Shown: positions 6,529 through 62,415 of the stretch, piece by piece
Layout of the letters: every line of letters starts with the position of its first letter
Numbering within the stretch: position 1 is the stretch's first letter
Assembly: GCA_964036275.1 (NCBI GenBank)
Contig: OZ038436.1
Span: 5,798,936-5,862,935 of the forward strand
Length of the DNA stretch: 64,000 nt
DNA from: Litoditis marina
Lineage: Eukaryota; Nematoda; Chromadorea; Rhabditida; Rhabditidae
Reading direction: 5' to 3'
Translations under genes and position numbers: made by a program
The notes under the pieces: generated by a model
Databases searched by the model: none
Seen by the model: only the letters and a program-made list of their open reading frames with translations
Told to the model about the DNA's origin: nothing

Positions 6529-6593
6529 GAAAAACTTGGTGGACTCAAAACGATTCGGTATTTCCAATCGATATATAAAGAAATGCTGAGACA
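6529..6593 (-). ncRNA. Candidate 21U-RNA locus 1A
   Basis: Core TGTCTCA, then GCATTT and CTTTATA; CGTT sets the predicted 5' U at 6,549, 38 nt past the core. The downstream box appears as AGCAAACAAGAAAGTGC at 6,492-6,508. Confidence 0.65.
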
Positions 6594-6762
6594 TTCATTC
6601 AATTTTCGAGAGTTCGAAACAATTTTCTTTCCAGTTATCGAACATCATGTAAGATGAACTACTCCATGGTTATAATGGAGCCTTATTCGTTAGTCGTAAC
6701 CTCGAAATTGTACGGTGGGTGTGAGTTACACTGCGGTCAAATCTAGAAAATAAAATTATATT

Positions 6763-6828
6763 ACGTGAACTTTCGTAGGATTACTGATGTTCGAGAAAAA
6801 TACAGACTCTTATGAATGTGCTGAAACA
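6763..6828 (-). ncRNA. Candidate 21U-RNA locus 2A
   Basis: Core TGTTTCA with GCACATTCATAAG after it, a weak TATA part; CAGT puts the 5' U at 6,783 (39 nt). Confidence 0.55.
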
Positions 6829-6904
6829 TTCAAGGGCTTTTATGCAAAATTTCAAATGTATTATAAACATTGAATTAATGCAACTTGCTGGGATGAAAGA
6901 ATAT

Positions 6905-7035
6905 TTACAACAGAAACGTATCTTTATTTAGGCTTCCTCAATCGTCGAATAGTATGTCAGAATTATGATTATTATTTTCTCCTTTTTATCCATGTATCTC
7001 ACATGTTTGCATTCAGTAAGTTCAAGTAACGAATT
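6905..7035 (+). mobile_element. LINE 3'-end remnant, copy A
   Basis: ATTATTTTCTCCTTTTTATC followed by ATCTCACATGTTTGCAT resembles the 3' end of the LINE at 21.24 kb (TTTATTTTCTCCTCTTGT then ATCACATGCTTGCATG). No coding part survives. Copy B (42,460-42,570) keeps about 105 bp next to it, at 42,350-42,455, that copy A lost. Confidence 0.4.
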
Positions 7036-8005
7036 TATTCGTAAGTTTGAACGTATGTTGTGTCGTTCAATATTGCATTATGAAATAATGATAACTGTCG
7101 AGGCTAGAAGGGAGCATAGCGCTGATAATTGTTGCAAACTAACATGCTTTGTGAGACGAGACAGCACGCAAATGAGGAAAAGTTAGACTCACTCCGATTC
7201 TATAGGTTCGATCGTTCCTACTGAGACTTGGCAGCGTGCCAATCAATATTCGAGGCTATTTTTCCCCCTCTCTGAGGAATTTCAAAAAATTTCGAATCAC
7301 TGTTAGCGATTGTTTAGTTTTATAAGAACATGTAAACGAGAAGTCTTTCAACATACTCAAGTTTGTTCGAAGAATCTAAAGAAATGAGAAAAGAAAATAA
7401 GAATCTTGCGAAAATCTTGGTCCGATGCCAATGAGTCTCAGTGCGAATGTGAACAAACCATACAAACATCCCTTTCTTTGTTAGCGATTGTTCAGTTTGA
7501 TTTCTTCAACTTCAATTCTTCTTTGATCGAGGACATGTAAACAAAAAGTGTTTTCAAAAAACTCAAGTTTGTTCTAAGAAATAGTCATGCGAAAATCTTG
7601 CCACGATGAATTGAATTGAATTGATTCATACACAAAGTTGTGCAACGGGACATATACATTACAGATAATATTCAAAATGTAGATAAGAATTGAAAGTCAA
7701 AAAAACTAAAAACTAGGCATGTTGATTAAAGAATGTACACATTGGTTGAGTACATGAGATCAAAGTACATGGTTGAGGCAGATGAGGGCGCACAGGCATG
7801 AAAAACACGTAAACGAATCAAAACATTACTTTGGAAGATGAAGGCTAAACTTATACTTTTCGAAATATTTGTCACAAATAAGTTGCTGATCGATTGGATG
7901 ATAACCGAAAAAAATTAGTCTTAGTGCGGATGAAACAAACTATACAAACATCCCTCTCTTCTATATCACGTACTTTACTTGCGTGATTAGTTCGTTGATT
8001 CAAGA

Positions 8006-8070
8006 CGTTATTCGTTTTCCTGAACAGTGTAACTTTCAACCGGTGTAACATATAAGCATTTGCTGATACA
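8006..8070 (-). ncRNA. Candidate 21U-RNA locus 3, copy A only
   Basis: Core TGTATCA followed by GCAAATGCTTATATG; CACT puts the 5' U at 8,026 (38 nt). The segment is missing from copy B. Confidence 0.62.
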
Positions 8071-9045
8071 TTCAACCACTGCATGACTACTTAAATCATT
8101 ATTTCTGGGTATTTCAGTTGTAAAAAACAAGGTCAGTAAAACTATTGAGATGAATGTTTTTTTTGACACAGTGGTTAACCTCTGTGAGAAGTGATATGTT
8201 TTGTTTCACATTCTTTCAATGATATAGTTGCATGATTGTTGATTTTTTTTTCTCGAACAAGTTATTATAAGTTATACACTACTTTTATCCGTACCGTAAT
8301 CTGTGAATCAGAAGTCAACTGAGTCGGTTTCAAGAGATCAGTTTCCATGATTCGAATACGGTAAATTTCACGAGTTTTTTGTGTGAAAAAAAAACATTAA
8401 AAAAAACCAATTCATTTCTACGAAGCGGATTTGAGTCTACACACTCACGCCTGCTCGCTCCGCAATCCGTAATCGATTGGGTCCTTTTCTTTTTTGGTAG
8501 TGAAATGTTGGCTTGACATTTATATAGCTCGTGGTCATTATAACAATAATGTTTTTCAATGGATAATAACATAAACAACTAGGTAAACATTCACGCCGAC
8601 TTTAGAAATATATTTTATTGCCGTGAATCACTGTTTCATGCTCGATTCGCATGGAATATACTTTTTTTTAGTGAATGGATTTTCATGTGCTAGAAAGTGC
8701 TTTCTTAGCGATTAAATTGTCATTGTCTTTTAAAATCACTATTTTATAGAAATCTGTTTTAGGAATGGTTCAATACTATGCACAATGTTACGGCGAATTG
8801 TACTGGTTCTGATTCCGCAACAAATTATTGTATTTTCATGTCTAAATGTTGTGTTAGTTTGTTTTCTTTTCCCCCTTTTCCTAAGTTCATGTAGTTAGGT
8901 CATTTTTGATTGAAGTCGGTTGTCATGCATATGAACAAATGAATTATTATTATTATTGTTATTATTATTATTGTATGCACAGTGTGAGTAATGTGGGGTC
9001 GTTGATTCTTTAGTAAAAACCATGATGTCATTGAACAAACGAATG

Positions 9046-9110
9046 GAGGCGAAATCTGCTCACGAATCGATCTACGAAGTTGATCGATTCTATAAAGAGG
9101 TGTTGTGACA
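9046..9110 (-). ncRNA. Candidate 21U-RNA locus 4A
   Basis: Variant core TGTCACA, then ACACCTCTTTATAG; CGAT puts the 5' U at 9,066 (38 nt). Spacing is intact although the core is off consensus. Confidence 0.58.
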
Positions 9111-10060: not shown

Positions 10061-10126
10061 GTGAATGTTATCGCAGAACAACTAGAGTAAGTTGAAAGTT
10101 ACAGCTTATATTAATATGCTGAAACA
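10061..10126 (-). ncRNA. Candidate 21U-RNA locus 6A
   Basis: Core TGTTTCA, then GCATATTAATATAAG; TAGT puts the 5' U at 10,081 (39 nt). Confidence 0.6.
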
Positions 10127-11818: not shown

Positions 11819-11880
11819 GGTTTAAAATAAACATCTGAATCGAACCGCATAGTTTAGCCAATATATATGGGGCTGACACA
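11819..11880 (-). ncRNA. Candidate 21U-RNA locus 8A, short spacing
   Basis: Core TGTGTCA, then GCCCCATATATATTGG; the nearest YRNT is CGAT with T at 11,839, only 35 nt away. The TATA part is also a few bases closer than usual. Confidence 0.42.
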
Positions 11881-12685
11881 TTCGAATATTCTGGAAGTGG
11901 TTCTGATCTTCGTTTGAATCTAAACAGTTTCTCTCGGAGGCAGATTTACCATTGGTGCCCATTCGGGATTTTCGCTGCGTAGAATTTTGCACGCAATGCA
12001 ACAAGTTGCCTGATCAATACGCACGAAACGTGAAAGTTTACAGTAAATGACCTCGTGAAAATGACCCAGAAGATGAAATAAAACGAGAAATGAGGGTAAA
12101 CCATGTGAATGGTTTTCGTTTTGGTGAGCAGTGTTTGTAATAGGTTATTTCATTTGAACAAAATATAGTTGTGTCACTAGGACTTTTGGATGATCTGATT
12201 GATTTCCATCCATCTGATTTCGGAACAAATTATTGTTTTATTGTATGCACAATGTGACTAATGTATGAACGTTCATTCTTTAGGCAAAAACCAAGATGTC
12301 TTCGAAGATACGAGTGGAGATATACTCACAACAAGCTGTGTACATAGAAGCTGAGGAGTAATGTAGGGTCCCTCGCAACGAAGCAAAGTGACATAATAAA
12401 TGAATAAAAAATAAATATGAGGACGATCATAGTTGGGAAACTTTGCAAGGAACCGCCAATTTCGTTAACCCTGCCAGTTAATATTCCAACCACTTTTCTA
12501 TTAAGCTTTCGTAACCCTTCTCTTCAACGTCTTTGGAAGAAATCCGCGGTTACCAAGTGGTTAACAAAAATTTTTACCATAAAATCGGTTCACAAAAAAC
12601 TGGCGCGGTTAAAAAAAAACGCAGTTATATATGATTTCACCGTCATAGTAAACATTCTCTCTTCTCATACTTAAATTCTATTTTC

Positions 12686-12746
12686 TCTGCGGATTTCCTA
12701 GAACTATCGAAATACTTTTTATAGTTTATAAAGAAGTGCTGACACA
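12686..12746 (-). ncRNA. Candidate 21U-RNA locus 9A, spacing reduced by 4
   Basis: TGTGTCAGCACTTCTTTATA is consensus-like, but CGAT lies 34 nt past the core (T at 12,706). Copy B has four more bases and the normal 38. A relative of the downstream box follows. Confidence 0.5.
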
Positions 12747-14024
12747 TTAAACCATTCTAGAAATGTAGAATACACGCTCTCCAATTCGTCAAATTTGCTG
12801 TCATCTAAACTCGCATTCGAAATGAACTCACAAGTGGGTTTGAAAGTTGAATATGAAAAGAAAGGTTTGAAAGTCCCGAGCGGAATGTATACATTTCACG
12901 TGAAAGGCCTCTATCAAACTTCACCTGAATTTAGAAGTTTATCGTACAGGCAAAGATTTATGAGATATACAGTAAAAATTATAAGAAATTAATACAGAAA
13001 CATCAGAGATTGAACCTCACTACTGACAGGTACAATTTATATGAAACTTTCTCATGCTAAGCTGACTGTTAATAATTTTCGGAGAATTCCGGAATAAATA
13101 AACGGTTCAGAAACGATAAAATAACCAAAATATACACATGCTAAAAACGGGATTCGCTTTGCAGAGAAACATAACTTTTTGTAAGAGATCAACTGTTTCG
13201 TATTGGATTCTTAAAAGCTGTGAGGTATACGTAAGGTAGTTGTGTGTGTCTTTTTATCAGTACTGATGCAAAAAGAGAGTTATGGGTTTTAAACAAAAGT
13301 ATTATTGAAGAAAAAAAAACGTGTTTCAAACATTATGATATTATCAATTGAAACTGAGAAAAAGAATCTTTCACTGTGGAAAAGGATCTACTTTTAGTAT
13401 TCGCAGTCTTTGATATTTCATAGAATCTTTCTTCAAGCGAATGTTTCGTCCAGTAAATTAGAGCCCGTGTTTTATACTTACGAGAGTCCATTCAATGCGT
13501 TGAACAAATTTAAAAACAGTTTTGAACTAAAAATACGCAATGTTCCAATGTTGTTCAACAAACTTACAAACTGCCAGTGAGAAAAATTGCATAACTTCAA
13601 ACATTACAGTTGCTAACAACTTATTTATCATGCAAAACACGAAATAACTAATAGGCTACGACGCTACTTTAGGAGAAAGACGTTTTCATTTTGGTTCATA
13701 ACTCCACCAGTTCTACCAAAACTCTTTAGTGGCGAGGAATAGTCGAAATCATTCCTACCGAGACTCCTACAGTACTCATTCAAACTTCAAATCAGTGATT
13801 TCCAATGCAAACTTCCACTTACTCAAATACACTGGATTATTCTGGGTAATAGAAAATCATAATTGATTTCAAAAATTCTGACGTTTTCGTTAACATTTAC
13901 GGTAAACAACAGCACGGAAAAGTTGTGTTTCTAATATAGGAGTTTCAGTAAGAATTCACAAGACATAGATGAATAAGTAAAAACATCTTTTTTTTTGCCC
14001 CAAAGCTGTGGTGGAAAATTAATT

Positions 14025-14091
14025 TTTTGGCGGGAAGCAATCATACTGCCGCAAACTGTCTATATCGTATCTTTAACAACTTGCTGAAACA
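14025..14091 (-). ncRNA. Candidate 21U-RNA locus 10A
   Basis: Core TGTTTCA, then GCAAGTTGTTAAAGATA; CAGT puts the 5' U at 14,045 (40 nt). In copy B a Helitron separates core from U; the inverted relative at 26,108 has lost the YRNT. Confidence 0.55.
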
Positions 14092-14726
14092 TTCAAGCAC
14101 GTCGCCGCAGAATCAGGTAATGTGTTAACTCACTTGCTTACTTACTCTAACCGTATTTCTTTGACGAAGACAAATTGTACTACATAACATTTATAATCAA
14201 CAACACAAAGTTTTTTTCTATATTTAGGGGCAAATGTCTTCCATTTGAAGATATACATGATAAAGTTTATCACAAAGGAAATCAACAGAGTTGAATTTCA
14301 TATTGAATTTGATAAATAAAATCGTTTCTGAAGTTCATAAGATGTTCATGAAAGTAGAATATTTTCAGTTCCTTAGTTTTTTTCCTAAGGTACCACCCAA
14401 CTACCATTAGTACGCCTGTTGAGTTTCGATCGTACCAGGGTTTACCAGACTCGAGAGAGTTTTTTTTGAGAAGAAAACTTGAGAAGAGTTTGAGCACGAA
14501 ACTAATCAAAATGAGAGCTTTTTGAAATCCATTGGAACAAACGTGTGAGTGGGAAACATGTTTCTATCTTCTCATTTAATTGCGGACAGTACAACACAAG
14601 CAGAAAAACCTATGCGAGATGTGGTTTGCAAATCTCGTTATAAAAGAATTTGTCACATTTACTCTATTAGATCGCTCAATGGTGATAGTATAGGTATGTC
14701 TCTGTGTAACTGCGGACATACATAGT

Positions 14727-14910
14727 CTGGCGGTATCTGTCTGGCGGACCGCAGGAGCTGGTAACAAAGCTCACCCATGTCTATTTCCACCCCCTCTACA
14801 GACAGTCCTTCTACGGTTGATAAATGATTTGTGTGTGATTATATAATTCTCTCAATAAAGTAATGCACGGCTGAAACAGTTGCCGTAAAATATTATTATT
14901 ATTATTATTA
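14727..14910 (+). mobile_element. SINE copy lacking its tRNA head
   Basis: Matches the body of the SINE at 16,784-17,036 in opposite orientation: GGCGGACCGCAGGAGCTGG, AAGCTCACCCATG, AATAAAGTAATGCACGGCTG and GTTGCCGTAAAA, then a clean (ATT)n tail. The tRNA-like part is absent, as after 5' truncation during target-primed insertion. Confidence 0.6.
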
Positions 14911-15692
14911 GTGAGTAGTGCAACATGATTGCATTCAAAATTGATAAAATCATGGTCGATATCAAAAAATTACTCAGTGTGCAGTCAGTCCAGCACGTAA
15001 TTTTTGCCTGAGAAATCAAAATACTTGTCAGTTCCTTAATGAATGAATAAACTGAACCAGCCTGTTAGAATTTCCTCGTACTACATATTGACATGACTCA
15101 TAATTTTATTTTAAAAACTTTATATTATTGGTATTTCATCGAATACGTAACACATAGAATCTCATTCTTCTCAGTGTCTGCATCATCTAATGAAAACAGA
15201 AGTTGAAAATAGCTTATAAAGTCTGTCTGGAACACCGAGATGCGCATGGAAGTCTGAAACACCTGGGCCGCGGGCCCAAATTGAAAATGATGAAAATGTT
15301 TGGCTGCACAGCTATTTTCAATCATGATCTGAATTATACAGTGTATTTCTTCATTTCTGATGTGTCTATTGAACTTTCACCAGTATTCTATTTCATTTAG
15401 CGGACAAACGTGGATATTTCCCACTTCGCTGAAACAGTTCAAACGTCTACTAGTTAGTTCATGCTACATACGATTAAAATAAAACTTTCATCGAATGATC
15501 AAAATATAACGTTTGAATAGAGAATATCTCCCTTCCGAAGAGGCTTAACCAGTTGTTCAGTAAGTTGGTTAATGTGAGCCATCGGCGACTCTTGCGTTCA
15601 ATGAAAAAAGCAACCTGGAGAACATTGGCTGTTCGAGACAAAGTTTCTTTTAAAAAGTGAGAACTTTTGTGTTTGTTTCAAATGTGTTCGAG

Positions 15693-15757
15693 TGTTTCAC
15701 ACCATCCTTATCAGCTTTCCAGCTCATGCAATATGATAAGTTGGTTTTTTTCGGTTA
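15693..15757 (+). ncRNA. Candidate 21U-RNA locus 11
   Basis: TGTTTCACACCATCCTTATC; TGAT puts the 5' U at 15,737 (38 nt). Paralogous surroundings occur at 18,230-18,430. Confidence 0.65.
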
Positions 15758-15940
15758 CACTGATAAATATGTTCTGCTTCCCACAGAAAGAACATCTTTA
15801 TTTGACGAGGCTTCTTCATTAAACTCATTAGTATCCTATAGTCCATAGTACCCTGTTTAGCGGGGTTCCCATAAACAATTAGTTCTTGTACAATTTGTAC
15901 AAACGTATTGTAATTACGTTGTGAACGTAGTGTGCTTTGG

Positions 15941-16005
15941 TGTTTCACACCGACTTTATAAACTGTACGCGCATCAAACTTTAATTTGTTCTCATTTGGA
16001 ATTTT
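15941..16005 (+). ncRNA. Candidate 21U-RNA locus 12
   Basis: TGTTTCACACCGACTTTATA, the best match to consensus; TAAT puts the 5' U at 15,985 (38 nt). Sister loci are at 17,039 (damaged by a SINE) and 20,283. Confidence 0.72.
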
Positions 16006-16391
16006 TTGTTACAAGAGCTCAAACAAGTATATGTGAACGTTGAAAGTGAGTATACGGTATTTCTATATTTTTGATGTGTATATTGGATCGAGTTCTGGTT
16101 GTACTCTATAGCGTATGAACAGGATAATTAACATCACAGGTATCAATATCAAACAAATAATGTTAAATTGAAGTACTTTTGATAACTTATTATAGACAAA
16201 CTATATTTTTACAAGTTTTTTGGAGTTGAGAGTTGCCAAGAATTAGCAAAATTCGTCGGTAAACCACGAAAAAATTGCATTTGAGGTATATATTGAACGA
16301 ACGATTTCTAGTTTAATTTAGAACGATTTCAAAAAGAGATATAGGTTTCCATGCACTCTATTGTAATGTTCAGTCTTTTTTTAAATGATAC

Positions 16392-16457
16392 TCGTTGGCT
16401 GCGAATGATACATCAAATAGCGGCCACGCACCAGTCATCTATATAGGCTGTGAAACG
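16392..16457 (-). ncRNA. Candidate 21U-RNA locus 13
   Basis: Core CGTTTCA, then CAGCCTATATAGATG; TGAT puts the 5' U at 16,412 (39 nt). Sister of the locus at 18,959. Confidence 0.55.
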
Positions 16458-16783
16458 CCCAAGTGCGGGTCTCCCACTTCACTGAAACAGTTCAAACTTC
16501 TACCAGTCATGCTACGTTTAAAACAACTTATTATATCTGCTCAGAGGTTTTTACAATCCAGAACCATTTTTCGCACAGAATTCACCCCTAGAAACTCAAT
16601 CTCTTGTAGCGAAGAAAGAGATATGAATGAAAAAACCGTGTGATCAAAAAACATGCCATGCATTCCTAGAATGCGGAAAAGTGTCATTTTGAGTAATGGT
16701 TTGGAGAAATGAAGATCGTTCGTCTCGGTTTTTTAGTGTATTTGGGTAGTGTAACTACCTGAGTTTAAGTTAGTAAGTGCCAT

Positions 16784-17036
16784 CTGGTGTTTAACATAAT
16801 AATAACATAATCTTTTACGGCAACTATTTCAGCCGTGTGTTACTTTATTCATACAATTACAACATTGATCTCATTGTAGTATCCGTAGAGAGGGGGGTCC
16901 GTAGAAGAGAAACTAGGCATGGGTGAGCTTTATTACCAGCTCATGCGGTCCGCCATGAAGATACCGCGCCGAGTGGGATCGAACCATGGTGTTTTGAGTG
17001 CTAGCGCGCACACAACCAGTCGACCACTCGGCCCCC
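16784..17036 (-). mobile_element. tRNA-derived SINE
   Basis: Read on the minus strand, it begins GGGGCCGAGTGGTCGACTGG with a box A-like GGCCGAGTGGTC (17,022-17,033), followed by box B GGTTCGATCC (16,976-16,985), as in the Ser/Leu class of tRNAs. The pairing of the arms is imperfect, so it is not a working tRNA. An unrelated body follows, with GCTCACCCATGCC, an AATAAAG signal and a tail of TTAT/TAT units. A second copy lies at 14,727-14,910. Its 5' end is next to a piRNA-like promoter (GTTTCACGCAGTATTTATAA, 17,039). Polymerase III would transcribe it internally; movement would need a partner LINE. Confidence 0.65.
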
Positions 17037-17038
17037 TA

Positions 17039-17060
17039 GTTTCACGCAGTATTTATAAAC
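17039..17060 (+). promoter_or_regulatory. piRNA-like promoter without YRNT
   Basis: GTTTCACGCAGTATTTATAA is a clear relative of locus 12, but no YRNT occurs at 37-41 nt, and a SINE adjoins its 5' side. Likely inactive. Confidence 0.45.
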
Positions 17061-18157
17061 TGTATACAGATTGGATGTTTTTAAGACTAAGATTGGATTT
17101 TTTCCCAGCCCATACTAATTTATGATAAACATACCTCAATCAATACTTGTGAACGTTGAAAGATAGTATACGGTATTTCTTCAGTTGAGATGTGTCTATC
17201 AAATCGAGTTCTGTCGTATTCTATACGCTTTACCAATAGGATTTACAAAATTACATACAAAACACAAATACAAATACAAATATCAAATATCAATTACAAA
17301 TAGGATTTACATACAAAATGAATTTTCCATCGAATGATTGAAAATAAAACGTTCAGACGGAAAATATCTGCTCTTCCAAAAGTTCCAACCAGTTGTTCAG
17401 TGATTTGATTTCGGTATGCCAATCGATACCGTTGCGATCATTTGAAATCTAAACCTGGAGCATTTCATTTTTGCAAGATACTGTGGTAAAACAACGGAAG
17501 GTTTTTGAAATTCTGAAATTCTGAAACGATCGTTTCAGAAAAGGTTTGAGGAGTAGTGTACTCTACCTCACACAGTCTTCACACAGTCTTCATATACTAT
17601 CCGAGAAACCGCCAGCAATGTCTTTTTTATTGAACATTGTCGAATTCTCATGAGCAGAGCTCGATCAAACACTTGAAAACGTTATCATTGAATTACGGTA
17701 GTGGCCAATTCTTGAAAATAAGATATAGTTTATTGCGCAAAGAATTTACACTTATGTTAGACTTTATGTAGAAAACATACCTAAACATTATGTGTTACCC
17801 AGTGATCACAGCAAATTCCGAATTAAAGGTCGGTCTTATGTTGTTCACCCACGTGTTTCTGAAGTTGTCCCAATATTTTCGGCTATTTCTTAGAGTAAAC
17901 AGGGGTTCTCTAATATAGTTGCGTTATTTACGTGTTGCAATAGAGCTGAACAACCGCTATCAGATATTTAGAGGTATTTGATTAATTTCACAGGTGACGA
18001 AAAACAACGTTTGAATTCAATGGCACGCTGCCAAATTTTCAGTGGAAGTAGCGAGAACTATAACCCAAAGCGTGCAATTTCAGACATAAACACCTAGGAA
18101 CTAACTCCTTCGCTGTAACTAGCCTTTTTCTATTTCAAGCTTTTGTGCGCAGCTCTA

Positions 18158-18223
18158 TCTTTCACACCGCCTTTACAAACCAGTTGCTACTTATAATTTC
18201 ATTGCTTCGTCGTTATCGTTAGA
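18158..18223 (+). ncRNA. Candidate 21U-RNA locus 14
   Basis: Core TCTTTCA, then CACCGCCTTTACAAAC; CATT puts the 5' U at 18,203 (39 nt). Confidence 0.55.
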
Positions 18224-18400
18224 GCTTCTATCAAGTTGTTCAGTGAGTTGATTAATCGTTTGCGACTTTTGCGTTCATTAAAATATGAAAATGGAGCGCT
18301 GTTCGGAACAAAGTTTCTTCTAAAAGGAGATTTTGTGTTTGAAGCGTGCCGGAGAGTTTTCTGCAAAACATACTATTCTTCTGTTCTAAGCGCGTTTCGG

Positions 18401-18467
18401 TGTTTCACACTCAGTTTATGAGTCATTCACCGACGAGTTTCTTCAGTTTATTCCTTTTAATTAGTTT
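18401..18467 (+). ncRNA. Candidate 21U-RNA locus 15
   Basis: TGTTTCACACTCAGTTTATG; CAGT puts the 5' U at 18,447 (40 nt). Duplicate of locus 11's neighbourhood. Confidence 0.6.
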
Positions 18468-18807
18468 TGAATGTCTTATAAACCGGCGAACAGTTCACAA
18501 CTATATTTCCAAGAGATCTAACTTCTGTTTGATTTTCCGGTTCAAAATAACTGAAGTTTAAGCGGACTCGATCGTCAAAAGCGAATGCTTGTGAAAAAAA
18601 CTAGAAAAAGCATTACTCTTTTCTTTAAAAAAGGAGGGATCGATATTGAAAATTCTCTTTGAGTTTTTCTCGTTCAAGGATTAATCGATGGGATTTCTTG
18701 AAACTATGAGGAGTTATTGTAACTATAGCAAATATAGTAAACAAGTGCTGAACTACATAATCGATATAAGTTATGTTCACTATGGAGGGCTATGTTATGC
18801 GCTCTTG

Positions 18808-18872: not shown

Positions 18873-18891
18873 TGCAAATGATACTTAGGCG

Positions 18892-23400: not shown

Positions 23401-23402
23401 AC

Positions 23403-51104: not shown

Positions 51105-51490
51105 GGCTCAGGCTAGCCATCATTCCTAGAAAAGCTCGCTTCACTTCAGTGGTTCGGCTCGTCCCACTTCAGTGGCTGGCTGGTTTACTGTTATACCAGA
51201 TAAAAAGGCTTAGGCTCAGGCTAACCATGATTCCTAGAAGAGCTCGTTCCACTTCAGTGGCTGGCTCGTTCACTGTATTCTTACCAGATAACAGGGTTTA
51301 GGCTTAGGCTAACCATGATTCTTAGAAGATCTCGTTCCACTTTAATGGCTGGCTCGTTCACTGTATTTTTACCAGATAACAAGGCTTAGGCTTAGGCTAA
51401 CCATGATTCTTAGAAGAGCTCGTTCCACTTCAATGGCTGGCTCGTTCACTGTATGCTTACCAGATAACAAGGCTTAGGCTATACATAATC
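51105..51490 (+). repeat. 88-bp tandem repeat inside Helitron
   Basis: About four copies of a unit containing GGCTTAGGCTAACCATGATT, AGAGCTCGTTCCACTTCA, GTGGCTGGCTCGTTCACTG and ACCAGATAACAAG. The three right-hand copies are 88 bp apart; the left copy has extra sequence. Confidence 0.85.
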
Positions 51491-51589
51491 CTGGGCCAAT
51501 AAAACCGGGGACAGTGGCAATTTCTCTGACCGCGCAGCGACATTTATTCAATATTGCCGCGCAGCGATGTCCGTTACTCCACTGCCAAT

Positions 51590-52640
51590 CTTGCCGCGCA
51601 GCGATGCCCGTTCCCTACTTTACTTCGGGGACAGTGGCAATTTTCCCTGGCCGCGCAGCGACCCTTTTCCAATCTTGCCGCGCAGCGATGCCCATTCCTT
51701 ACATTACCCATGGCCGCGCAGCGGCCCTTTTCCCATCTTGCCGCGCAGCGATGCCCGTTCCCTACTTTACTTCGGGGACAGTGGCAATTTTCCCTGGCCG
51801 CGCAGCGACCCTTTTCCAATCTTGCCGCGCAGCGATGCCCATGCCTTACATTACCCATGGCCGCGCAGCGGCCTTTTTCCAATCTTGCCGCGCAGCGATG
51901 CCCGTTCCCTACTTTACTTCGGGGACAGTGGCAATTTTCCCTGGCCGCGCAGCGACCCTTTTCCAATCTTGCCGCGCAGCGATGCCCATTCCTTACATTA
52001 CCCATGGCCGCGCAGCGGCCCTTTTCCCATCTTGCCGCGCAGCGATGCCCGTTCCCTACTTTACTTCGGGGGCAGTGGCAATTTTCCCTGGCCGCGTAGC
52101 GACCCTTTTCCAATCTTGCCGCGCAGCGATGCCCATTCCTTACATTACCCATGGCCGCGCAGCGGCCCTTTTCCAATCTTGCCGCGCAGCGATGTCCGTT
52201 CCCTACTTTACTTCGGGGGCAGTGGCAATTTTCCCTGGCCGCGCAGCGACCCTTTTCCAATCTTGCCGCGCAGCGATGCCCATTCCTTACATTACCCATG
52301 GCCGCGCAGCGGCCTTTTTCCAATCTTGCCGCGCAGCGATGCCCGTTCCCTACTTTACTTCGGGGACAGTTCCAATTTTCCCTGGCCGCGCAGCGACCCT
52401 TTTCCAATCTTGCCGCGCAGCGAGGCCCATTCCTTACATTACCCATGGCCGCGCAGCGGCCCTTTTCCAATCTTGCCGCGCAGCGATGCCCGTTCCCTAC
52501 TTTACTTCGGGGACAGTGGCAATTTTCCCTGTCCGCGCAGCGGCATTTTTCCAATCTTGCCGCGCAGCGATGCCATTCTTTACATTACCCATGGCCGCGC
52601 AGCGGCCCTTTTCCAATCTTGCCGCGCAGCGATGCCCACT
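51590..52640 (+). repeat. 147-bp satellite inside Helitron
   Basis: Seven near-identical 147-bp units, each holding four CCGCGCAGCG boxes about 35 bp apart, separated by TGCCCGTTCCCTACTTTAC, GGGACAGTGGCAATTTTCCC, ACCCTTTTCCAATCTTG and TTACATTACCCATGG. Because 147 is a multiple of three and the unit lacks stops in four frames, long spurious frames run through it. Only scattered single-base differences separate units, so expansion is recent. Confidence 0.95.
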
Positions 52641-52885
52641 AGTAAACCTGGTTGCCCAGCCCCGATTTATTAACAGCCGCGCAGCGGCTGCCTCAATAAT
52701 TGATAATGACGTGCGCTGCGCGCACGGCCAATAGACGCGGCGGCCGCGCCGCCAGCACTAAAACACCTATAACTTGGCTGAAAATGGCTGGATTTTCAAA
52801 AACTTTTTTTAAATGAAAGAAATTGAATTAAATAATAAATAAAAAAATGGGAACAGTGGTTCCACAGTTCTAAAGGGACCGCTAG

Positions 52886-52907
52886 TCTTTAACAACTTGC
52901 TGAAACA
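52886..52907 (-). promoter_or_regulatory. piRNA-like promoter 10B cut by Helitron
   Basis: Core TGTTTCAGCAAG and about 15 bp remain on the right of the Helitron; the TATA part beyond GATA and the CAGT start site remain on its left, about 5 kb away. The locus should be inactive. Confidence 0.55.
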
Positions 52908-53860
52908 TTCAAGCACGTCGCCGGAGAATCAGGTAATAATGTGTTAACTCACTTGCTTACTTACCCTAACCGTATTTCTTTGACGAAGACAAATTGTACT
53001 ACATAACATTTATGATCAACAACACAAAGTTTTTTTCTATATTTAGGGGCAAATGTCTTCCATTTGAAGATATACATGAAAAAGTTTCTCACAAAGGAAA
53101 TCAACAGAGTTGAATTTCATATTGAATTTGATAAGTAAAATCGTTTCTGAAGTTCATAAGATGTTCATGAAAGTAGAATATTTTCAGTTCCTTAGTTTTT
53201 TTCCTAAGGTACCACCCAACTACCATTAGTACGCCTGTTGAGTTTCGATCGTACCAGGGTTTACCAGACTCGAGAGAGTTTTTTTGAGAAGAAAATGTTG
53301 AGAAAGAAAAAACGACCTTTTGATTAGAAGTTCGTACTCTGATAATTTATTTCGCGTTCTAGAGAACTTTCCTTATTTGATATCAACTTCACATATAGAA
53401 ACAACTTGAGGAAACCCTTCTTTCATCGGGAAACATCTTTATTGAGAACAAAGCTGACAGTTTTGTTAATCTCGTTCTATAGTTTTTTTTTCAGATGAAC
53501 TTTCATAGTGAAACAAAGAGAATTGGAAGAAGGGCTTGCAGCAGATATTCCACAATCAAATAATGCTCGTTCTATTCTTGATGATAGAAAATTCCATGAC
53601 ATTAGTCAATATAATAAACAGATGAACACTCACACCACAAATTGACGAAATTCCGGTTGCAACAAAAAATCGTTCAACGTTATTTTTTATCATGTTTTAC
53701 ACAAAAAAAATCTGTTCTTGTGAACATATGAGATGGATTTCATACCATAGTGAGAACAGACTTCAGTTACCTGCTAAAGTTGTCGTTGCAACACTGAGCC
53801 AAAGCAATCTGAGACAGAATTCGCAAAAATTGTGGAACATACATAATTATATGTTCTCCC
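52886..53860 (+). repeat. Duplicated block F, direct copy
   Basis: Continues copy B to the right of the Helitron; the portion beyond 53,299 is missing from copy A but survives, inverted, at 25,340-25,770. Confidence 0.8.
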
Positions 53861-56802
53861 CGGTTGACTACATTGTTTATAATCTATGAACAATGTATGG
53901 ACGTTTTTTATAATGAATGGAAACATTGATTAATATTTATTCGCGCTTCTATACCTTTATCACACCCAACTAAGCGGTCTTACGTCGATTCCCCCCCTTC
54001 CTTCACCCCCTGATGGTCGTCTCTCTTAATTAGCACCAGAGGTGTTCGATGGTCGTCTCTCTTAATTGGTACCAGGGGTGACAGTCATGGTAATGGAAAG
54101 CCAGCTAGTGTAAATTTGTTAAGTCACAAAGCTTAAAAGATTCATTAGAAATCTTATAGGGTGAGCGATACATTTTTGAACTACTCTATAGTTACCTATG
54201 ACAATCACACAGTTGAAAAGCTGCAAAAATATTGTTCAAACATTATGAAATGATTCTTGAATCATTTCAGTAAATATATAACATTCAGCATTGTATCATC
54301 GTGCGTGTACAAAATACGGAATACCAAACTTTAGCTTTCCATCAAGATAAGAATATTTGAGCGCGAGACTGTCATTATTAATACTTTAACTACGGTAGTT
54401 CGGTAAATGAGAACTGTTCATTTTTTGAGAATTATTTTCTGGTTTCATACCTTTTCAAATGGAGTTCATAGGAAGGCCAATTCCATCAGGAACCCGTTGT
54501 TTCGTTAACCCTATCAGGAAACCTTACCCGGGTTAACTGGTGAACCCTTTTGTTTACCCTTTTTTTTACAATGTCTTTTGGGGGAAATTAGGGGTTAACA
54601 AGTTACAAGTGGTTAACAAAAGGGTTAACCAAGTAACCTGGTTAATGTTTAACTGATAGGGTCAATAAAATACCGGGTGAAATAAAGAAATCGCCTCATC
54701 GTAATGATTGAATAACAAATGTTTCTTTTTATTTTTGTGGTAAGTCTTCTGGATTATCGCACACTTTCCTTCACGAATAAACAAAACCAAGCCGCTCATG
54801 TTTATCATCACTGAAAATTTAGTTGCTGATCATCATGAAAGAGCAACGCATACAAACATTATAGGATATTTTTGTGCTAGTCCTACATCAATCGACCTAT
54901 ATCAAACTAAAGTTAATGAGACGAGACTAAGAGTGCTTACGTTCAATCTAAGAACCGTACAAGCCGATCGCGGTTACTGACCCACCAATTGAGAGTATTA
55001 CGACGGTTGAACTTTCAAAAAACTTTGATGAGACCACTACTGACTAAGCGTTATTGGTGTTCGTTGTAGTTGATTTAGATATGAGTGATCCACTAAAAAA
55101 TCTACGCTGCTAACAATGTAATACCTAGAACAGAAAGCTATGTTGTCCGAACAAGTATACTGGTTGGGGTTGCAACTGTAGTTTATCTTGAACTACACTT
55201 GCTTACTCGCTTCAACAATCGACCAGCTTTAAGTGAAATCAACATTCCAGCTTGGAACCCCTCTGAAAATTAGAGAAACCAACGAAAGATGCACAATCTT
55301 GGAATGTTCTTGACTACGTGCTGTCGTAGTAAAAATTTTGGTTCACGCTAGTTTCGCGCCCGTTATATGGCCTGCTGAAGTGGGGTGTCGTACGGAGTTG
55401 GCTCCGAATTCGCATCTCTGGTTAAACAAAATAAAATCACCTAGTGGCGTTGATACAGACTCTACATAACACTTTCTCACAACTTTATCGCTCTGTCTTT
55501 TTTCAATTTTTTCAAACGGAAACTGTGAGCACGAGTTAGTTATGTAAGTCACGTAGAATAGAAACGGATTATATGAAAGCTTCCCTAGCATTTTTGACTA
55601 ACGTCAGAACTCTTCTATTTCTCAAATGTAAATATTCACTATTAAATTGCAAACCTTCGGCTCTATTCATAACCCTGATGAAGTTCCTTCAAAGTGTGGT
55701 GGTAGGATTAGTTATTAACTGAAAGTTCAGCTCCATCCGGGACACTGCATTCGATTAAGTTTGGGGTAGAGGCAAATCGTACCACTTTTCATACTCTTTT
55801 TTCTTATTCTCTTAGTTTGTATCACTTTACATGAGCTTACCCTTATTTACACACCACAAGGAAAAACTACAGCATCTACAAAACATGTGATCGTTTTCCT
55901 GAGTCCCCATGCTTTGAAATGATGTATTCACTACAAGTTTTCGTTTACTTAGAGAATTACAGTGTAACTAGTAAGGTAACTTTTCTTTTCAAATTCCGCT
56001 CCCTGTTAAATAGTATGCCAATTAGGGATGCGCAGAACATAATCAAACGCTTGCCGCCATTCAAAGACATACCGCTTACCTACCCCGGGTGCCATTCTAC
56101 TGGTTGTCTCGCTAATTGAATTGACCTCTTTTAGTCGAGGGGGGAATCAACATGAAACCCAACTAAGCGTTACATTGCACACTGTTGTTACTTCTTCCAA
56201 TCCTGTCTTTTTGCATAACAAGTTCCAGTAAATTATAAAGCTATTGATTCGAAGGTCCACACCAAACCAAACTTATTTTGCTCCACTGATTGTTACTCTG
56301 AGGACTTCGTATGTAGTACTAACATTTATGTAGTATACTTTGTTTTTTTATAATTTTTCGACCTTGACAGGCATGTTAAATGGAAAACTGCGCGATCAAT
56401 ATTTTTCGTGAGTTAAATCTGTTTACACTCAACCTAATTTTCTTGAAATTGTTTCATTCACTCCTTGTTTCATTTTATTTTCTCAGCGGTGTTATGGTTG
56501 AACTGATGTTAACCAAACCCTCTTAGAACTCCGAATCCGTTTTTACTCTGGATTGAAAGATATTGATTGAAACAAACAATTCCGTAATATCGTCTGAATG
56601 ATACAGCAATTATCTGTGTTTCCAACAAATAAACCACTAAGATTAAAATAATGAAATCATTCGTAAACATTATTGAGAAAAATCATGTTTCGTTGAGTGG
56701 CACCTTCCACTGAGCACGTATCTCCATAATAACATGTTTTGAATGTTTGTTCCGAGCGTCACCGTAAACACAATATATTATTCTTGGAAACCTCAAAACG
56801 AA
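53861..56802 (+). other. Mostly featureless spacer
   Basis: Besides the inverted-repeat element at 54,485 only short frames are present. A minus-strand patch at 55,343-55,420 (RCEFGANSVRHPTSAGHITG) and a plus-strand patch at 56,010-56,119 (PFKDIPLTYPGCHSTGC) look slightly coding but lack supporting splice sites. Confidence 0.4.
54485..54665 (+). mobile_element. GGTTAAC-rich inverted-repeat element
   Basis: TTAACCCTATCAG near the left and CTGATAGGGT near the right are complementary, with GGGTTAAC and GTTAACC words between. Composition resembles the elements at 4,879 and 12,445. No coding capacity. Confidence 0.45.
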
Positions 56803-57171
56803 TAACTTTTTTTGTGAAAAGTGAACAACTTTCCGTATTCGCTGAAATTGGTTGTTTGTGGAATTTTTCTCAAACCGAATGTTTCGTCTAGTATACAAGA
56901 CCCCGTGGTTTTAAATGTACGATAATTCACTTATTACACTTTTGCGCCAGTAATTGCTCTCGTCGTAGGGTGTCTTTTCTAGCCCACTGAGGGTGTCATC
57001 TTGTTCTAATGAACGTACAACATGGTGGTTTAGTGGTATTTTGTGGGGCAATTGTACTGGGCAAAGACCTGTAATTCCTCTAGGGAATTACTCATAGTTT
57101 CGTGGAGTACAAGAAGATAGCCAAGAATTAACTCCGATTCCAATGCCAGTTTAGAGTGTGAATACATACAT

Positions 57172-58092
57172 GTCCACTAATATAAAACCGTTGCTTGGTG
57201 TGTGTGTGTGTGTGTGTGTATGAGGCAAAATGCCGTTCTGAATTGTAATATAGGTGCACTTTGTAGTTGGAAAAGGAGAAGGGAGAGGACGTGGAGAAAC
57301 GTGTAACTGGCCGCTTCTCATTTCTAAATCTATTGAAATCGGCTGTGGCTGGGATTTGATTTTGGAAATGGAAAGTTAATCTTCTAAATCTTAAGGAGAA
57401 CTCCCGCGCTCTATCCTAAGGAGAACTACGGCGCTTTATGTTAAAGCGAACAACCACGCTCTATTCTGTAGGAGAACTACCGCGCTCTATGTTAGAGAGG
57501 AGTACCGCGCTCTATTTTGAGGATAACTACCGCGCTCTATGTTAAGGATAACTACCGCGCTCAGCGTTAAAGAGAAATAACGCACTCTATGTTAAGCAGA
57601 ATGTTAAAGAGAACTACCACACTCGGAGAACTTCCGCGCTCTATGTTAAAGAGGAGTACCGCGCTCTATGTTAAACAGAACTACCACGCTCTATGTTAAG
57701 GAAAACTACCCTGCTCTATCTTAAGAAAAACTTCCGCGCTCTATGTTAAGGAGAACTCCCGCGCTCTATGTTAAAGAGAACTACCACGCTCTACGTTAAG
57801 GAGAACTTCCGCGCTCTATGTTGAAGAGAAGTACCGCGTTCTATGTTGAGAGAAAAACCGCGCCCTATGTTAAAGAGAAATATCCCGCTCTATGTCGAAG
57901 AGAACTACCACGATCTACGTTAAGGAAAACTACCACGCTCTATCTTAAGAAAAACTTCCGCGCTCTATGTTAAGGAGAACTTTCGCGCTAGGACTCTTTG
58001 AAGACGAAAATAGGAAGAAACAGCTCGACGCAATCACCGACCTAGACTCATCAAGGGAGGGACCCGGGCGTAGCCCGGGGTACCTTCCTTGT
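57172..58092 (+). mobile_element. Helentron-like insertion with central minisatellite
   Basis: Absent from the otherwise matching sequence near 23,770. The left end reads GTCCACTAATATAAAACCG, followed by a (TG)n run. The right end carries a perfect CCCGGGC-GTA-GCCCGGG hairpin (58,063-58,079) and then TACCTTCCTTG. The ends and the internal tandem array fit non-autonomous Helentron-type elements known from other animals. No coding sequence. Confidence 0.6.
57385..57995 (+). repeat. Minisatellite, about 25-bp unit
   Basis: More than twenty irregular copies based on CTCTATGTTAAGGAGAACTA plus CCGCG. Units vary in length and base, suggesting an older array than the 147-bp satellite. Confidence 0.9.
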
Positions 58093-59536
58093 AATAAATA
58101 TAACACATAAAAGTATATACAGTTTAATATGATATATCTATTTACAATGAATATGGGGAATCACATGAAGCTCAGACTTCTGGATCTTCATTTCGTTAGT
58201 GTGTTTTATGCTGTGTTATTTGCGTTCGTAGCGTGAATTACATTGTATCTATGAGTTATGTGTAATAGTCGTAAGAAAATCCAACAACCTTCCGTTCCGT
58301 AATCGTAAGCGTAAGTGATCCTAAAATGATCAAACTTTGCAGCGCGGCAAAGCACCGCGTTCGCGCCAATCGTAGCGTTGACGCGTCTTAATATGGCGCG
58401 AATTTGAATCGTATATATTAAAACTCTCGCCTGTCGCGACATACACCTTGTTCTTTCTGTTTACTTATTTATATTGCAAAACATGAACGCGCTAATAGAC
58501 TATGGCGTTATTTGTTATAAAAGACGTTTTAATTTTGATTCTAATAATTCCATCTGTTCTGCTATAAATCCATTAGCGGCGAGATTTGGTCGAAATCATT
58601 CCTACTCACACTCCTACAGTACCCATTCAAACTTTCCAATGACTGATTTTCATTGTGAACTTCAACTAACTCGAAAAATATGGGATTATTCTACTTTATA
58701 GAGAATCAAAATCGATATTGCGTTTTCGATAACATTTTCGGTACACAATGACACGGAAAGTTTTGTGTTTCTACGCTTTTAAGATAATCGCTTCTAAGAT
58801 AATCGATACACACTGTGTAATAAATATTTGATTTAATTTGAAAACCAACGACCTAAAAATAACCGCAGGCCACCCGCCGGCGACACTCTGCCGAAATCTC
58901 CATGTCGCCGGCGAGTCGCCGCCAAATTCTAGAGAAGAACAAGTACATATTATATTAGTTTACAAATTTCATTTTTGAGATACTTGCTTGTTCTCATTTA
59001 TACACATTGGAATGACCAGTGCTGATCGTTTCGCGAGAATTTTTGGCAATATGAATACATTGTGCGACATTTGAGTATGTGAACTCGTGTTTTTTATAAT
59101 CAGTCGCTTCTGTGCTATCCCGTGTAAAACCCAGTTTATGCTGGGTGTTCTTGATGTAAAGTCCGTAAGTGATCTGTTTTGGACTGAGATGGAACATCAT
59201 TGTTTAACAGATATCTGAAAGCATAGTTTTATACGATTTCTTGGAAATATGTCGGAAAAATTCAAAAAAAATGTCTTTCAACCAAAGTTCGAGAATGCCT
59301 AATAATTTTTTCTGGGTATATTAGTCGTCAAAGTCGAGGTACTTTAGTATCCGGAAGTTCAGTTTAAGTAAACTATATAAATACGTTGCACAAATTTTGA
59401 AATACGGATCAAATCAAGTAGTTTAAAATATCTTACAAACGCACTGACAGTATATTATTAGTATTAGCAAACATTGATTCGTGAAAGTGTTAACATTCTC
59501 TGTTCACATGCTCGGCTTGGTGAAGCTCAATGCAGT

Positions 59537-59601
59537 ACTCTGCGCTCGGAAAAACTAGCGATTTCTTATATTTCACCAGACTATAAAGAAGTGCTGACAC
59601 A
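59537..59601 (-). ncRNA. Candidate 21U-RNA locus 30
   Basis: TGTGTCAGCACTTCTTTATA; CGCT puts the 5' U at 59,557 (38 nt). Box GTGAACAGAGAATGTTAAC at 59,490-59,508. Confidence 0.7.
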
Positions 59602-59849
59602 TTCAACCACTCTAGAAATACTTTTGTATTGCGAGGTGAAACTCAATTTTTCGGTTATCCAGATTTACAAGCTGTTTGATTTTTGTGGTCGACATCAATA
59701 GGTGATTGTAGTCTGGTCAAAATCAATTGGAGGAACTATTGTTTAAAAAATCGATATTGTATAATAATTTACTGTTTCCCATTGTTACGGTGACCATCGA
59801 TACATAGAGGGTTTTTAGTTAGACGCAGTTTTTGGAAATAGTGGTTCAG

Positions 59850-59915
59850 TGTATCACGCACTTTATGAATACGTCATATTTCGTTCTGGAGCGGTCTTTC
59901 TTCTTTAAGCACTTC
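59850..59915 (+). ncRNA. Candidate 21U-RNA locus 31
   Basis: Core TGTATCA, then CGCACTTTATG; CGGT puts the 5' U at 59,895 (39 nt). Paralogue of locus 25. Confidence 0.6.
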
Positions 59916-60396
59916 GCATAGTAAAAATAGCTCATGGTTTTCGTAAATCCGAATGTGCATCGTCGATCCAGTATTTCTGTTCATGGATTTAATTACAAAA
60001 CATTTAGGATTAGGTTTGTCGAACAGAAACGTTGTTTCGAGAGCCATCTCCACAATACGAGTATTTCAGGGCCTATTTCTTATTGGAACGTTTTCATGAA
60101 AATGCTCTCAAACTTGATGAAAACATTACGTGACTGTGATTGTGATACACCAACTGTGATTGAAAATGAAAATGGGTGTTTTATTCAATGATTCCAGTGT
60201 TTCACCAAAGAAAACACTCGTGAGAGACCAATCAAACCATTTTGAAATTAATTTTATTGTCATGAGCACCTGTATTCACAAATCAGATTTAAGATATTAA
60301 CTTCCATTGAACAAATCGAAAAGGGAACTGAATTGAAGTTGTTTCAGAATTGATTTAATGCATATATATATCAAATAACCTTCTCTATGTCCTATC

Positions 60397-60457
60397 GATC
60401 GTTTTTGAACCTCGGCATTACGGTTAACAGCTATATAGTCCTAAGAGTGCTGACACA
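60397..60457 (-). ncRNA. Decayed 21U-RNA candidate
   Basis: TGTGTCAGCACTCTTAGGAC has a displaced TATATA; TAAT lies 34 nt past the core (T at 60,417). Paralogue of locus 26 with altered spacing. Confidence 0.3.
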
Positions 60458-60500
60458 TTCATACAATCTTAGCTTTCCCAAAATCAATTCCTCTCGTTGT

Positions 60501-61655
60501 TTTTGTTGCGCATGTTTATTTTCAGTTTTCTTGCACTGGTATAACGAAACAACTGGTGCATTGTTTACAAGTTTAATCTTCTTTTGGTTTCGACTCGGGA
60601 AGTTCGAAAAAAAATGTTCGCAACATTGAGAATGGGTACGGTATTTTTCAATTATTTTTTTCTCATCGACAAAAACTTCTTGCGTATGAAAACGGCTCAA
60701 ATTAACCAAAGAAAAGAACCTCAAACAAAATATCAAACAAGAACCTCAAACAAAATATTCAGTTTTCAAATAGTCAAGTTAAGTGTTGGAACAGCTATAT
60801 TTCAAGTTCGATCATAAACTTTGACGTGACTACTGCAGTCACTTTGACTTTGAACTTTGACGTGACTACACGTGACTTTCAGTTTCAAGAAATGTATTAC
60901 ACAGAGAAAGTGCATGTGAATAAGTAGAAATATGTTAAATGAAATCAAGTTAATTAGGATGAAGTTAATACATAAATGATTGAATGAATTGATAGTAATA
61001 AATAATATCTATGGAGTTAATATTGACATCTATGAAGTTAATGTTGAAGTTTAAAATAAAATACATCTGTGAATCGTGCCAAAAGTAGATATATTAATGA
61101 CATGAGACAAAAACACTAAAGGCGTGCAATGAGTAGATGTGGTTCAAGCGCCATATTTTTGATTTTTGAACAAAAACGGGTTCAAACTACAAACACAGCA
61201 ATTGAGCTACATTTACTCTATAGATTTACTACGTGAAGGATGCCAATGTTCTTGAGTTTTGATGTGCTGAATAAGTTCTGCGTAAATGTGCATTAGAGTG
61301 ATCGCATAAAAAGATATTGGAAAGAAAAGGGGGAACAATTTTGAATATGAGAACACATCCATGATATCACCACCCTGTCGGCCCCTTTAATAAAATAAAA
61401 TGCCATTAGGACCGGTTAGGTTACCAAAACAACCTGGTTTTCAGATAATTGGCCAACAATTAACGGAGCAATTACGTCAAACTCCTTCCCTCTCCACAAT
61501 GAAACTTTCTTCTACTCAGTTTTCACAAAATAGCATCTCGTTTCTAATCCGGGTTGAACATCTGGAAGCTTTGATCGTTTTGCTGCAGTTTTTCAACTTA
61601 GACAAGTTTTCAGCAAAAAGCTGTTCTTGGAGATCTAAAGTTTGTCATTCATTGC
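60501..61655 (+). other. No supported feature
   Basis: Simple AT-rich spacer. Repeats of TTTGACGTGACTAC near 60,820-60,880 are the only local structure; the frame at 61,400-61,693 shows no protein-like constraint. Confidence 0.4.
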
Positions 61656-61659
61656 GATG

Positions 61660-62130
61660 CAGAAAAACATTTAAAGAAACCGTTTTGCTATAATCTGAGT
61701 TTCACGAAAAATTCAAAAAGCTTAAAAAAGTTTCGCGATGTCTTCGCATAGACCATGCAAAAACTTTCATATTGAAAATTTGTAAAATTTGCATAACATC
61801 AAGCATTAAAAAAAAGAACATGAACATTTTCACTGTGACGCAACTCGACTTGGTTCTTTTACGTCCAGATATATGTTCATTTTGTAGTCTCTAACTGTGT
61901 TTTCGTATATGCAAGAAAGTTTTAAAAATATTTTTGTACTTCTATAGGCTATTCGGAGCATACCCCGTACGCAACTTCCCTATCGGTGTCATTACGTAAG
62001 CCGCCTTTCTGAGCAAACGAAGCAAGATAGAGATATAAAAGTATATATTTTTGATAATGGTTTTTCATTTGCCAAATGGTCAGATTGTTAACTCATGAGT
62101 CAAAATTAGAGCGGGACGAATTCTTTAATG
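61660..62130 (+). repeat. Duplicated block D, second copy
   Basis: Counterpart of 26,510-26,990. Its position relative to blocks C and E differs from the first set. Confidence 0.8.
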
Positions 62131-62349
62131 TAAACATGCACGAATAAGCACTTTCTTTCCAATGCTATTTTATATCGCATAATCAACAAATGCTTACATG
62201 TATATAGTCTTTCACAATCATTAAAGTACCGGATATGTGTTTAATAAAAGTACGAGAAAAAAGTATACCTTCAAAGATCATCATTGTCTCGTGTTATGTT
62301 ATTTTGCGCACTTTTATTTCGAATAGTGAACTATTGTCATGCGTTGAAA

Positions 62350-62415
62350 TGTTTCATCCACATTACTTAGGCTGCCATTAAGCAGTACGAACGATTCGGA
62401 CTTTTTTTATGAGCA
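62350..62415 (+). ncRNA. Candidate 21U-RNA locus 32
   Basis: TGTTTCATCCACATTACTTA; CGAT puts the 5' U at 62,395 (39 nt). Confidence 0.62.

Follow-up and report, generated by a model that had tools for sequence, protein, structure and literature searches.

Do the many short promoter-like sites in one stretch of the genome of the nematode Litoditis marina mark genes for PIWI-interacting RNAs (piRNAs), the small RNAs that protect germ cells? The stretch, here called the window, comprises 64,000 nucleotides (nt) of contig C2 (C2:5798936-5862935) in a genome of 262 Mb and 522 contigs. The original prediction had described a two-strand array of sites with a shared TGTKTCA core, a TATA-like element and a YRNT at a preferred distance, and had read it as a cluster of type I piRNA (21U-RNA) genes. 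Our analysis confirms that this promoter-like site array is real. Judged from the DNA, the window very probably belongs to a nematode cluster of type I piRNA (21U-RNA) genes, and we put the probability of this reading at roughly 0.93.

Promoter element and spacing of the predicted start

The TGTKTCA core occurs 81 times in the window, compared with a mean of 35.5 and a maximum of 51 in 100 shuffles. A position weight matrix (PWM) was built on offsets -6..+21 relative to the core of the TGTKTCA/TTTATA element and applied to 114 kb (C2:5768936-5882935), that is the window with 30 kb to its left and 20 kb to its right. This yielded 60 matrix sites versus about 5 in Markov-1 shuffles, a ratio that alone flatters the motif, because the matrix was trained on the scanned DNA and the threshold was chosen for less than 10% false sites. 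Removal of 2 antisense overlaps left 58 sites, 40 of them within the window. They lie on both strands (42 minus, 16 plus), as had been claimed, and merging at >72% downstream identity gave 44 representatives (downstream classes). The last site of the original prediction, judged by its end coordinate probably the one with its core at 62350, is missing from the matrix list. The PWM consensus is CTTGAATGTTTCAGCACTTCTTTATATA. A Ruby-type GTTTC core is seen both in this consensus and in the TGTKTCA excess; numerous individual sites deviate from GTTTC, and core variants among the matrix sites include TGTNTCA, TGTCGCA and TGTACCA. The fourth core base is often G, and in a local subfamily TTGAA precedes the core. 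The TTTATA box begins 14 nt from the first base of the TGTNTCA core.

The predicted start lies beyond the offsets on which the matrix was built, so that the spacing of YRNT provides an independent test. At offsets 44 and 45, which correspond to 38 and 39 nt past the final A of the core, a YRNT with its T in place was observed in 28 of the 44 representatives, where 6.2 were expected (P = 7e-14, a value that is too small because related sites are not independent). Over all 58 sites the count was 39 (expected 8.2). Representatives within the window (20/28, expected 4.0) and those in the flanks (8/16, expected 2.3) both showed the enrichment. When a distance of 40 nt was also allowed, 32 of the 40 window sites carried the tetranucleotide; the earlier hand count was 29 in 38 copies. 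A further claim, according to which an additional base ahead of the TATA part shifts the T from 38 to 39 nt, was not reproduced. The best register of CTTTATA was 13 in 17/17 offset-44 sites and either 11 (n=7) or 13 (n=4) in offset-45 sites, with ties counted in favour of 13.

The contribution of the TATA-like box was assessed among the TGTNTCA sites of the 114 kb, which number 157 without the second duplicate copy and two minisatellites. Where a TATA-like word stood within offsets 13-21, YRNT was present at offsets 44/45 in 21 of 34 sites; where no such word stood, it was present in 20 of 123 (Fisher P = 5e-7), and these sites showed no YRNT peak. Core, box and initiator therefore go together. 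In the commonest register the R of YRNT, which is the predicted start, lies 26 nt downstream of where TATA begins.

Distribution in the genome

We searched the genome with the strict pattern TGTTTCA-N8/9-TTATA-N21-YRNT, which gave 246 matches versus 26 for the reversed pattern. Among the 100 listed of these 246, a tandem array on C2 accounts for 69, the part of C2 before 3.5 Mb for 27 and C1 (21 Mb) for 4. A subset of the pattern that excludes the array gave 81 matches in register versus 9 reversed; with YRNT moved by 7 nt, the numbers were 23 and 4. The 81 matches are concentrated in C2:0.17-11.06 Mb (46) and C4:47-55.03 Mb (23), and two of the 12 elsewhere are letter-for-letter repeats, on C4, of a C2 site. 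Thus, 69 of 81 fall in two domains on separate contigs, one of about 11 Mb and one of about 8 Mb, a megabase clustering of the C-type, and the window lies inside the C2 domain. For counting, the domains were drawn as C2:0-11.5 Mb and C4:47-55.65 Mb (7.7% of the genome) after the matches had been seen. Within them, 69 matches in register face 11 off register; outside, the ratio is 12 to 12. The preference for the YRNT distance that was predicted for a genome scan therefore holds inside the domains but not outside, where the distribution is flat. In matrix scans at threshold 10, the C2 flanks (50 kb) contained 18 sites, the C1 loci (24 kb) 0 and the Argonaute loci, which overlap in part and cover 32 kb, 2. 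At threshold 14, the C2 flanks kept 16 sites, and the C1 loci, the Argonaute loci and the surroundings of the PIWI gene described below had 0.

These data also bear on the possibility that the element is a dispersed repeat or transposon family whose spacing was inherited from a common ancestor. The window does contain segmental duplications, and subfamilies share flanks; of 8 genome matches to the form TTGAATGTNTCAGC, 7 lie within C2:5.775-5.859 Mb. However, the spacing persists across the 44 downstream classes, and small subfamilies aside, the 58 sites do not share flanks. The spacers of the C2 and C4 genome matches are mostly unrelated by eye, while the register is the same. As a control, 58 of 100 listed places with CTGTTTCA..TATA were hand-picked without a fixed rule before their sequences were read. 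YRNT stood at 44/45 in 5/53 of those on C1, which is near chance, and in 5/5 on C2. The C2 picks mostly have the correct gap between core and TATA; with a gap of 9 only, the counts were 1/8 on C1 and 4/4 on C2. On the strength of the downstream classes, the unrelated spacers and the C1 control, we reject a transposon family as the main explanation and consider it highly improbable.

Sites of the form CTGTTTCACGCACTTATA on C1 were also considered as piRNA genes and rejected. The four that were fetched (L078, L079, L081, L105) share flanks by eye and therefore look like a dispersed repeat. The core of this C1 repeat resembles the piRNA core, and its spacing is different.

Cellular machinery, proposed mechanism and related systems

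In this genome, Piwi-domain exons occur at several places, one of them at C2:18465315-18466379. The exons at C2:18.465 Mb gave a Piwi-like protein as the best match to a solved structure (E = 3e-40), compared with 2e-16 for the best eukaryotic match of the AGO clade (AGO3), and the gene is therefore assigned to the PIWI clade; a PIWI (PRG-1-like) protein is accordingly present. SL1 RNA genes are found in tandem repeats, with Rfam matches under the family cut-off and the leader GGTTTAATTACCCAAGTTTGAG, which we take to be the canonical SL1 leader. In the survey of PMC6436959, the only nematodes outside Clade V (Rhabditina) with PIWI are plectids. The PIWI gene thus makes a placement of this species in Rhabditina probable.

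A relationship between the piRNA and small nuclear RNA (snRNA) promoters of nematodes is presumed (PMC6436959), and a U6 promoter is likewise laid out as a core and a TATA box upstream of the start. The sites might then be snRNA-like or U6-like genes of RNA polymerase III, with a proximal sequence element (PSE) and a TATA box. They were compared with the U6 genes of the same genome, for which 26 matches exist and 12 were read. A common upstream element like ACTAGATACGGC was seen in five of those read (L122, L124 with its duplicate L125, L127 and L128), from which L127 and L128 deviate by single changes; a TATATAA box is present in L122, L124, L125 and L127, but not in L128. In none of these five was TGTTTCA found at the promoter position. 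The PSE thus differs, and by sequence the sites do not resemble U6 genes. Runs of T were examined in 32 sites. Within the predicted RNA, TTTT exceeds AAAA (3/1, 5/1, 1/0 and 6/1 at U+0, +5, +10 and +15, at most 6/32 per bin), as polymerase III genes might show, but early T runs in some predicted RNAs would stop that polymerase. Directly after the predicted RNA, at U+20..+37, there is no excess; TTTT was counted in 0, 2 and 2 of the 32 at U+20, +25 and +30, and AAAA in 2, 5 and 4. A tRNA scan and an Rfam scan of the window at gathering scores found nothing. Mainly because of the promoter sequence, it is very unlikely that these are polymerase III genes.

The type I 21U-RNA reading is supported by the core, the YRNT distance, the use of both strands, the two domains, PIWI, SL1 and the downstream DNA, where the A/T content at U+20..+35 is 0.71-0.77 versus 0.635 (32 sites), a modest difference without a separate significance test. 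The framework for a mechanism comes from work on C. elegans (PMC6436959, PMC6317315, PMC3597512); our own results concern DNA features. Each site would be an independent mini-gene with a TGTNTCA core, a TTTATA box and a YRNT 38-39 nt past the core. A SNAPc-type complex (USTC, with PRDE-1, SNPC-4, TOFU-4 and TOFU-5) would bind the core and TBP the box, and RNA polymerase II would be recruited. Transcription would start at the R of YRNT, and the polymerase would pause or stop in the A/T-rich DNA 20-35 nt past the U. The short capped RNA would then lose its cap and 2 nt and be trimmed to 21 nt, and the product would be loaded on the PIWI protein of this genome as a germline guide. The published framework also includes C-type clusters, a Ruby motif that peaks 42 nt from the U and a start 2 nt upstream (PMC6436959), and C. 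elegans TBP-1 is required for the piRNA foci of TOFU-5 (PMC6317315). The TATA-like box offers a testable prediction about TBP.

The system is of a known kind. It resembles the type I clusters on C. elegans chromosome IV in its core like CTGTTTCA, in a YRNT whose T comes first and in its megabase clusters (PMC3597512, PMC6317315, PMC6436959), and the spacer of about 35-42 nt in C. elegans type I genes is similar (PMC3597512). In contrast to C. elegans, the core is looser here (TGTNTCA, G often fourth), a strong TATA-like box is coupled to YRNT, and the sites are concentrated in two domains on two contigs. C. briggsae likewise has several megabase clusters, which use both strands and carry a Ruby motif and a YR initiator (PMC9683057). 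Around the Ruby motif of one C. briggsae cluster there are strong A/T-rich motifs of unclear function (PMC9683057). Pristionchus-type (P-type) loci also carry a Ruby motif upstream of 21U-RNAs, but they are spread over the autosomes within introns of active genes (PMC6436959), whereas the concentration of pattern sites in two domains is as in C-type species. A core element at a fixed distance to the start is shared with the bipartite promoters of Plectus and with U6/snRNA promoters. Plectus loci differ in having an extra SNAPc-like motif (PMC6436959), and the U6 genes of the same genome carry another upstream element. The TATA-like box, for which we do not claim uniqueness, and the satellite of predicted piRNA genes described below are less usual features. 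With this genome, one more becomes available for mapping type I piRNA clusters by sequence alone.

Several observations weigh against the 21U-RNA reading. The surroundings of the PIWI gene, which lie outside the domains, have 2 sites within 6.8 kb at matrix threshold 10 and are then as dense as the C2 flanks. A second, weaker YRNT rise was seen at offsets 72/73 (17/44, with an average of 7.0 for other pairs), which falls within the A/T-rich stretch past the predicted RNA. Many sites have a common ancestry, and 8 of the 40 window sites are missing YRNT at 38-40 nt. Finally, a TATA box is reported absent from the piRNA promoters of Plectus sambesii (PMC6436959), and a TATA-like box is present here.

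Predicted genes, duplicated copies and a satellite of predicted piRNA genes

The predicted 21U-RNA genes of the window, all of them PWM sites, are listed below with strand, core, position of the first U and distance of YRNT. The last line gathers sites over a span and is not one feature.

4332..4397, minus, predicted 21U-RNA gene, core 4391-4397, U 4352, YRNT 39 nt
6529..6593, minus, predicted 21U-RNA gene, core 6587-6593, U 6549, YRNT 38 nt
6763..6828, minus, predicted 21U-RNA gene, core 6822-6828, U 6783, YRNT 39 nt
8006..8070, minus, predicted 21U-RNA gene, core 8064-8070, U 8026, YRNT 38 nt
9046..9110, minus, predicted 21U-RNA gene, core 9104-9110, U 9066, YRNT 38 nt
10061..10126, minus, predicted 21U-RNA gene, core 10120-10126, U 10081, YRNT 39 nt
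14025..14091, minus, predicted 21U-RNA gene, core 14085-14091, U 14045, YRNT 40 nt
15169..15234, minus, predicted 21U-RNA gene, core 15228-15234, U 15189, YRNT 39 nt
15693..15757, plus, predicted 21U-RNA gene, core 15693-15699, U 15737, YRNT 38 nt
15941..16005, plus, predicted 21U-RNA gene, core 15941-15947, U 15985, YRNT 38 nt
16392..16457, minus, predicted 21U-RNA gene, core 16451-16457, U 16412, YRNT 39 nt
18401..18467, plus, predicted 21U-RNA gene, core 18401-18407, U 18447, YRNT 40 nt
18808..18872, plus, predicted 21U-RNA gene, core 18808-18814, U 18852, YRNT 38 nt
19786..19850, plus, predicted 21U-RNA gene, core 19786-19792, U 19830, YRNT 38 nt
20283..20347, plus, predicted 21U-RNA gene, core 20283-20289, U 20327, YRNT 38 nt
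24802..24866, minus, predicted 21U-RNA gene, core 24860-24866, U 24822, YRNT 38 nt
25189..25254, minus, predicted 21U-RNA gene, core 25248-25254, U 25209, YRNT 39 nt
27878..27942, minus, predicted 21U-RNA gene, core 27936-27942, U 27898, YRNT 38 nt
28879..28944, minus, predicted 21U-RNA gene, core 28938-28944, U 28899, YRNT 39 nt
29253..29318, plus, predicted 21U-RNA gene, core 29253-29259, U 29298, YRNT 39 nt
29800..29864, minus, predicted 21U-RNA gene, core 29858-29864, U 29820, YRNT 38 nt
31800..31864, plus, predicted 21U-RNA gene, core 31800-31806, U 31844, YRNT 38 nt
39753..39818, minus, predicted 21U-RNA gene, core 39812-39818, U 39773, YRNT 39 nt, duplicate of 4397-
41959..42023, minus, predicted 21U-RNA gene, core 42017-42023, U 41979, YRNT 38 nt, duplicate of 6593-
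42192..42256, minus, predicted 21U-RNA gene, core 42250-42256, U 42212, YRNT 38 nt, duplicate of 6828-
42371..42435, minus, predicted 21U-RNA gene, core 42429-42435, U 42391, YRNT 38 nt
43394..43458, minus, predicted 21U-RNA gene, core 43452-43458, U 43414, YRNT 38 nt, duplicate of 9110-
44293..44358, minus, predicted 21U-RNA gene, core 44352-44358, U 44313, YRNT 39 nt, duplicate of 10126-
46476..46540, minus, predicted 21U-RNA gene, core 46534-46540, U 46496, YRNT 38 nt, its copy 12746- lacking YRNT at 38-40
59005..59069, minus, predicted 21U-RNA gene, core 59063-59069, U 59025, YRNT 38 nt
59537..59601, minus, predicted 21U-RNA gene, core 59595-59601, U 59557, YRNT 38 nt
59850..59915, plus, predicted 21U-RNA gene, core 59850-59856, U 59895, YRNT 39 nt
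11874..60457, 8 promoter-like sites without YRNT at 38-40 nt, cores at 11880-, 12746-, 18960-, 19604+, 26108+, 45666-, 52907-, 60457-

The eight sites in the last line are perhaps decayed or use other starts. Together with the varied cores and the loss of YRNT in 12746- compared with its duplicate 46540-, they would also fit a former piRNA cluster, once real, of which much has decayed and fallen silent. Decay, however, would erase the strong YRNT preference that is seen across the whole set, and we regard this history as unlikely.

In a diverged segmental duplication of 95-98% identity, 1-7439 corresponds to 35353-42978 and, piecewise, 9384-14071 to 43624-47896, and window sites in these parts are therefore paired. 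Several predicted piRNA genes are carried on the duplication, and YRNT was lost in one copy of a pair. The window also holds minisatellites at 32868-34752 and 51506-52640, the first of which is strongly G-skewed on the plus strand, with a GC skew of 0.5 between 32 and 34 kb. With regard to the claim of gene-poor DNA, 17 of the 57 open reading frames of at least 90 amino acids in the window were scanned with Pfam and gave no match. Those at 20350-21036 (228 amino acids) and 22488-23525 (345 amino acids), likewise without a Pfam match, resemble by eye what we take to be parts of a non-long-terminal-repeat retrotransposon.

The tandem array on C2, which is located outside the window at 3.5 Mb, is a head-to-tail satellite with a 163-bp unit and 180-bp variants. 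Its two blocks, C2:3504742-3515274 on the minus strand and 3521347 to about 3525285 on the plus strand (loci L116-L118 and L120), are divergent, facing away from each other; no further copies of the unit core were found up to 3529000. Each unit comprises a predicted piRNA promoter and one predicted 21U-RNA. The strict pattern, with YRNT in register with the core and the TATA-like box, is matched by at least 69 units; for the central part of the left block (3506001-3513799) pattern matches are the only source. The predicted RNA, TGTCTGACCTTGAGACTTATT, is identical in 35 of the 39 copies read, while 3 have a one-base change and 1 is cut off at the end. Among 24 units of 163 bp, 8 positions vary. 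Targets of this RNA were searched for as exact complements of guide positions 2-17 in which the base facing position 1 is not A, and 0 were found; the search did not extend to targets with mismatches.

We tentatively suggest that this lineage may run a TATA-dependent type I piRNA promoter and may have made one 21U-RNA gene a satellite, although we hold this to be somewhat less probable than its opposite. If true, a single piRNA would be amplified through gene dosage, and tandem duplication would be a source of new piRNA genes. The origin of new worm piRNA genes is named as an open question in PMC9683057, and the duplicated stretches of the window and the satellite are concrete cases of how such genes may arise. 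In the titles and abstract openings found in a partial literature collection, no tandem array of one nematode piRNA gene is described. About 3 kb past the satellite, an open stretch at L120:4334-4460 looks by eye like a KH-domain exon. It is followed, perhaps in its intron, by GTGTTTCACACATAGTATA motifs at L120 4664 and 4878.

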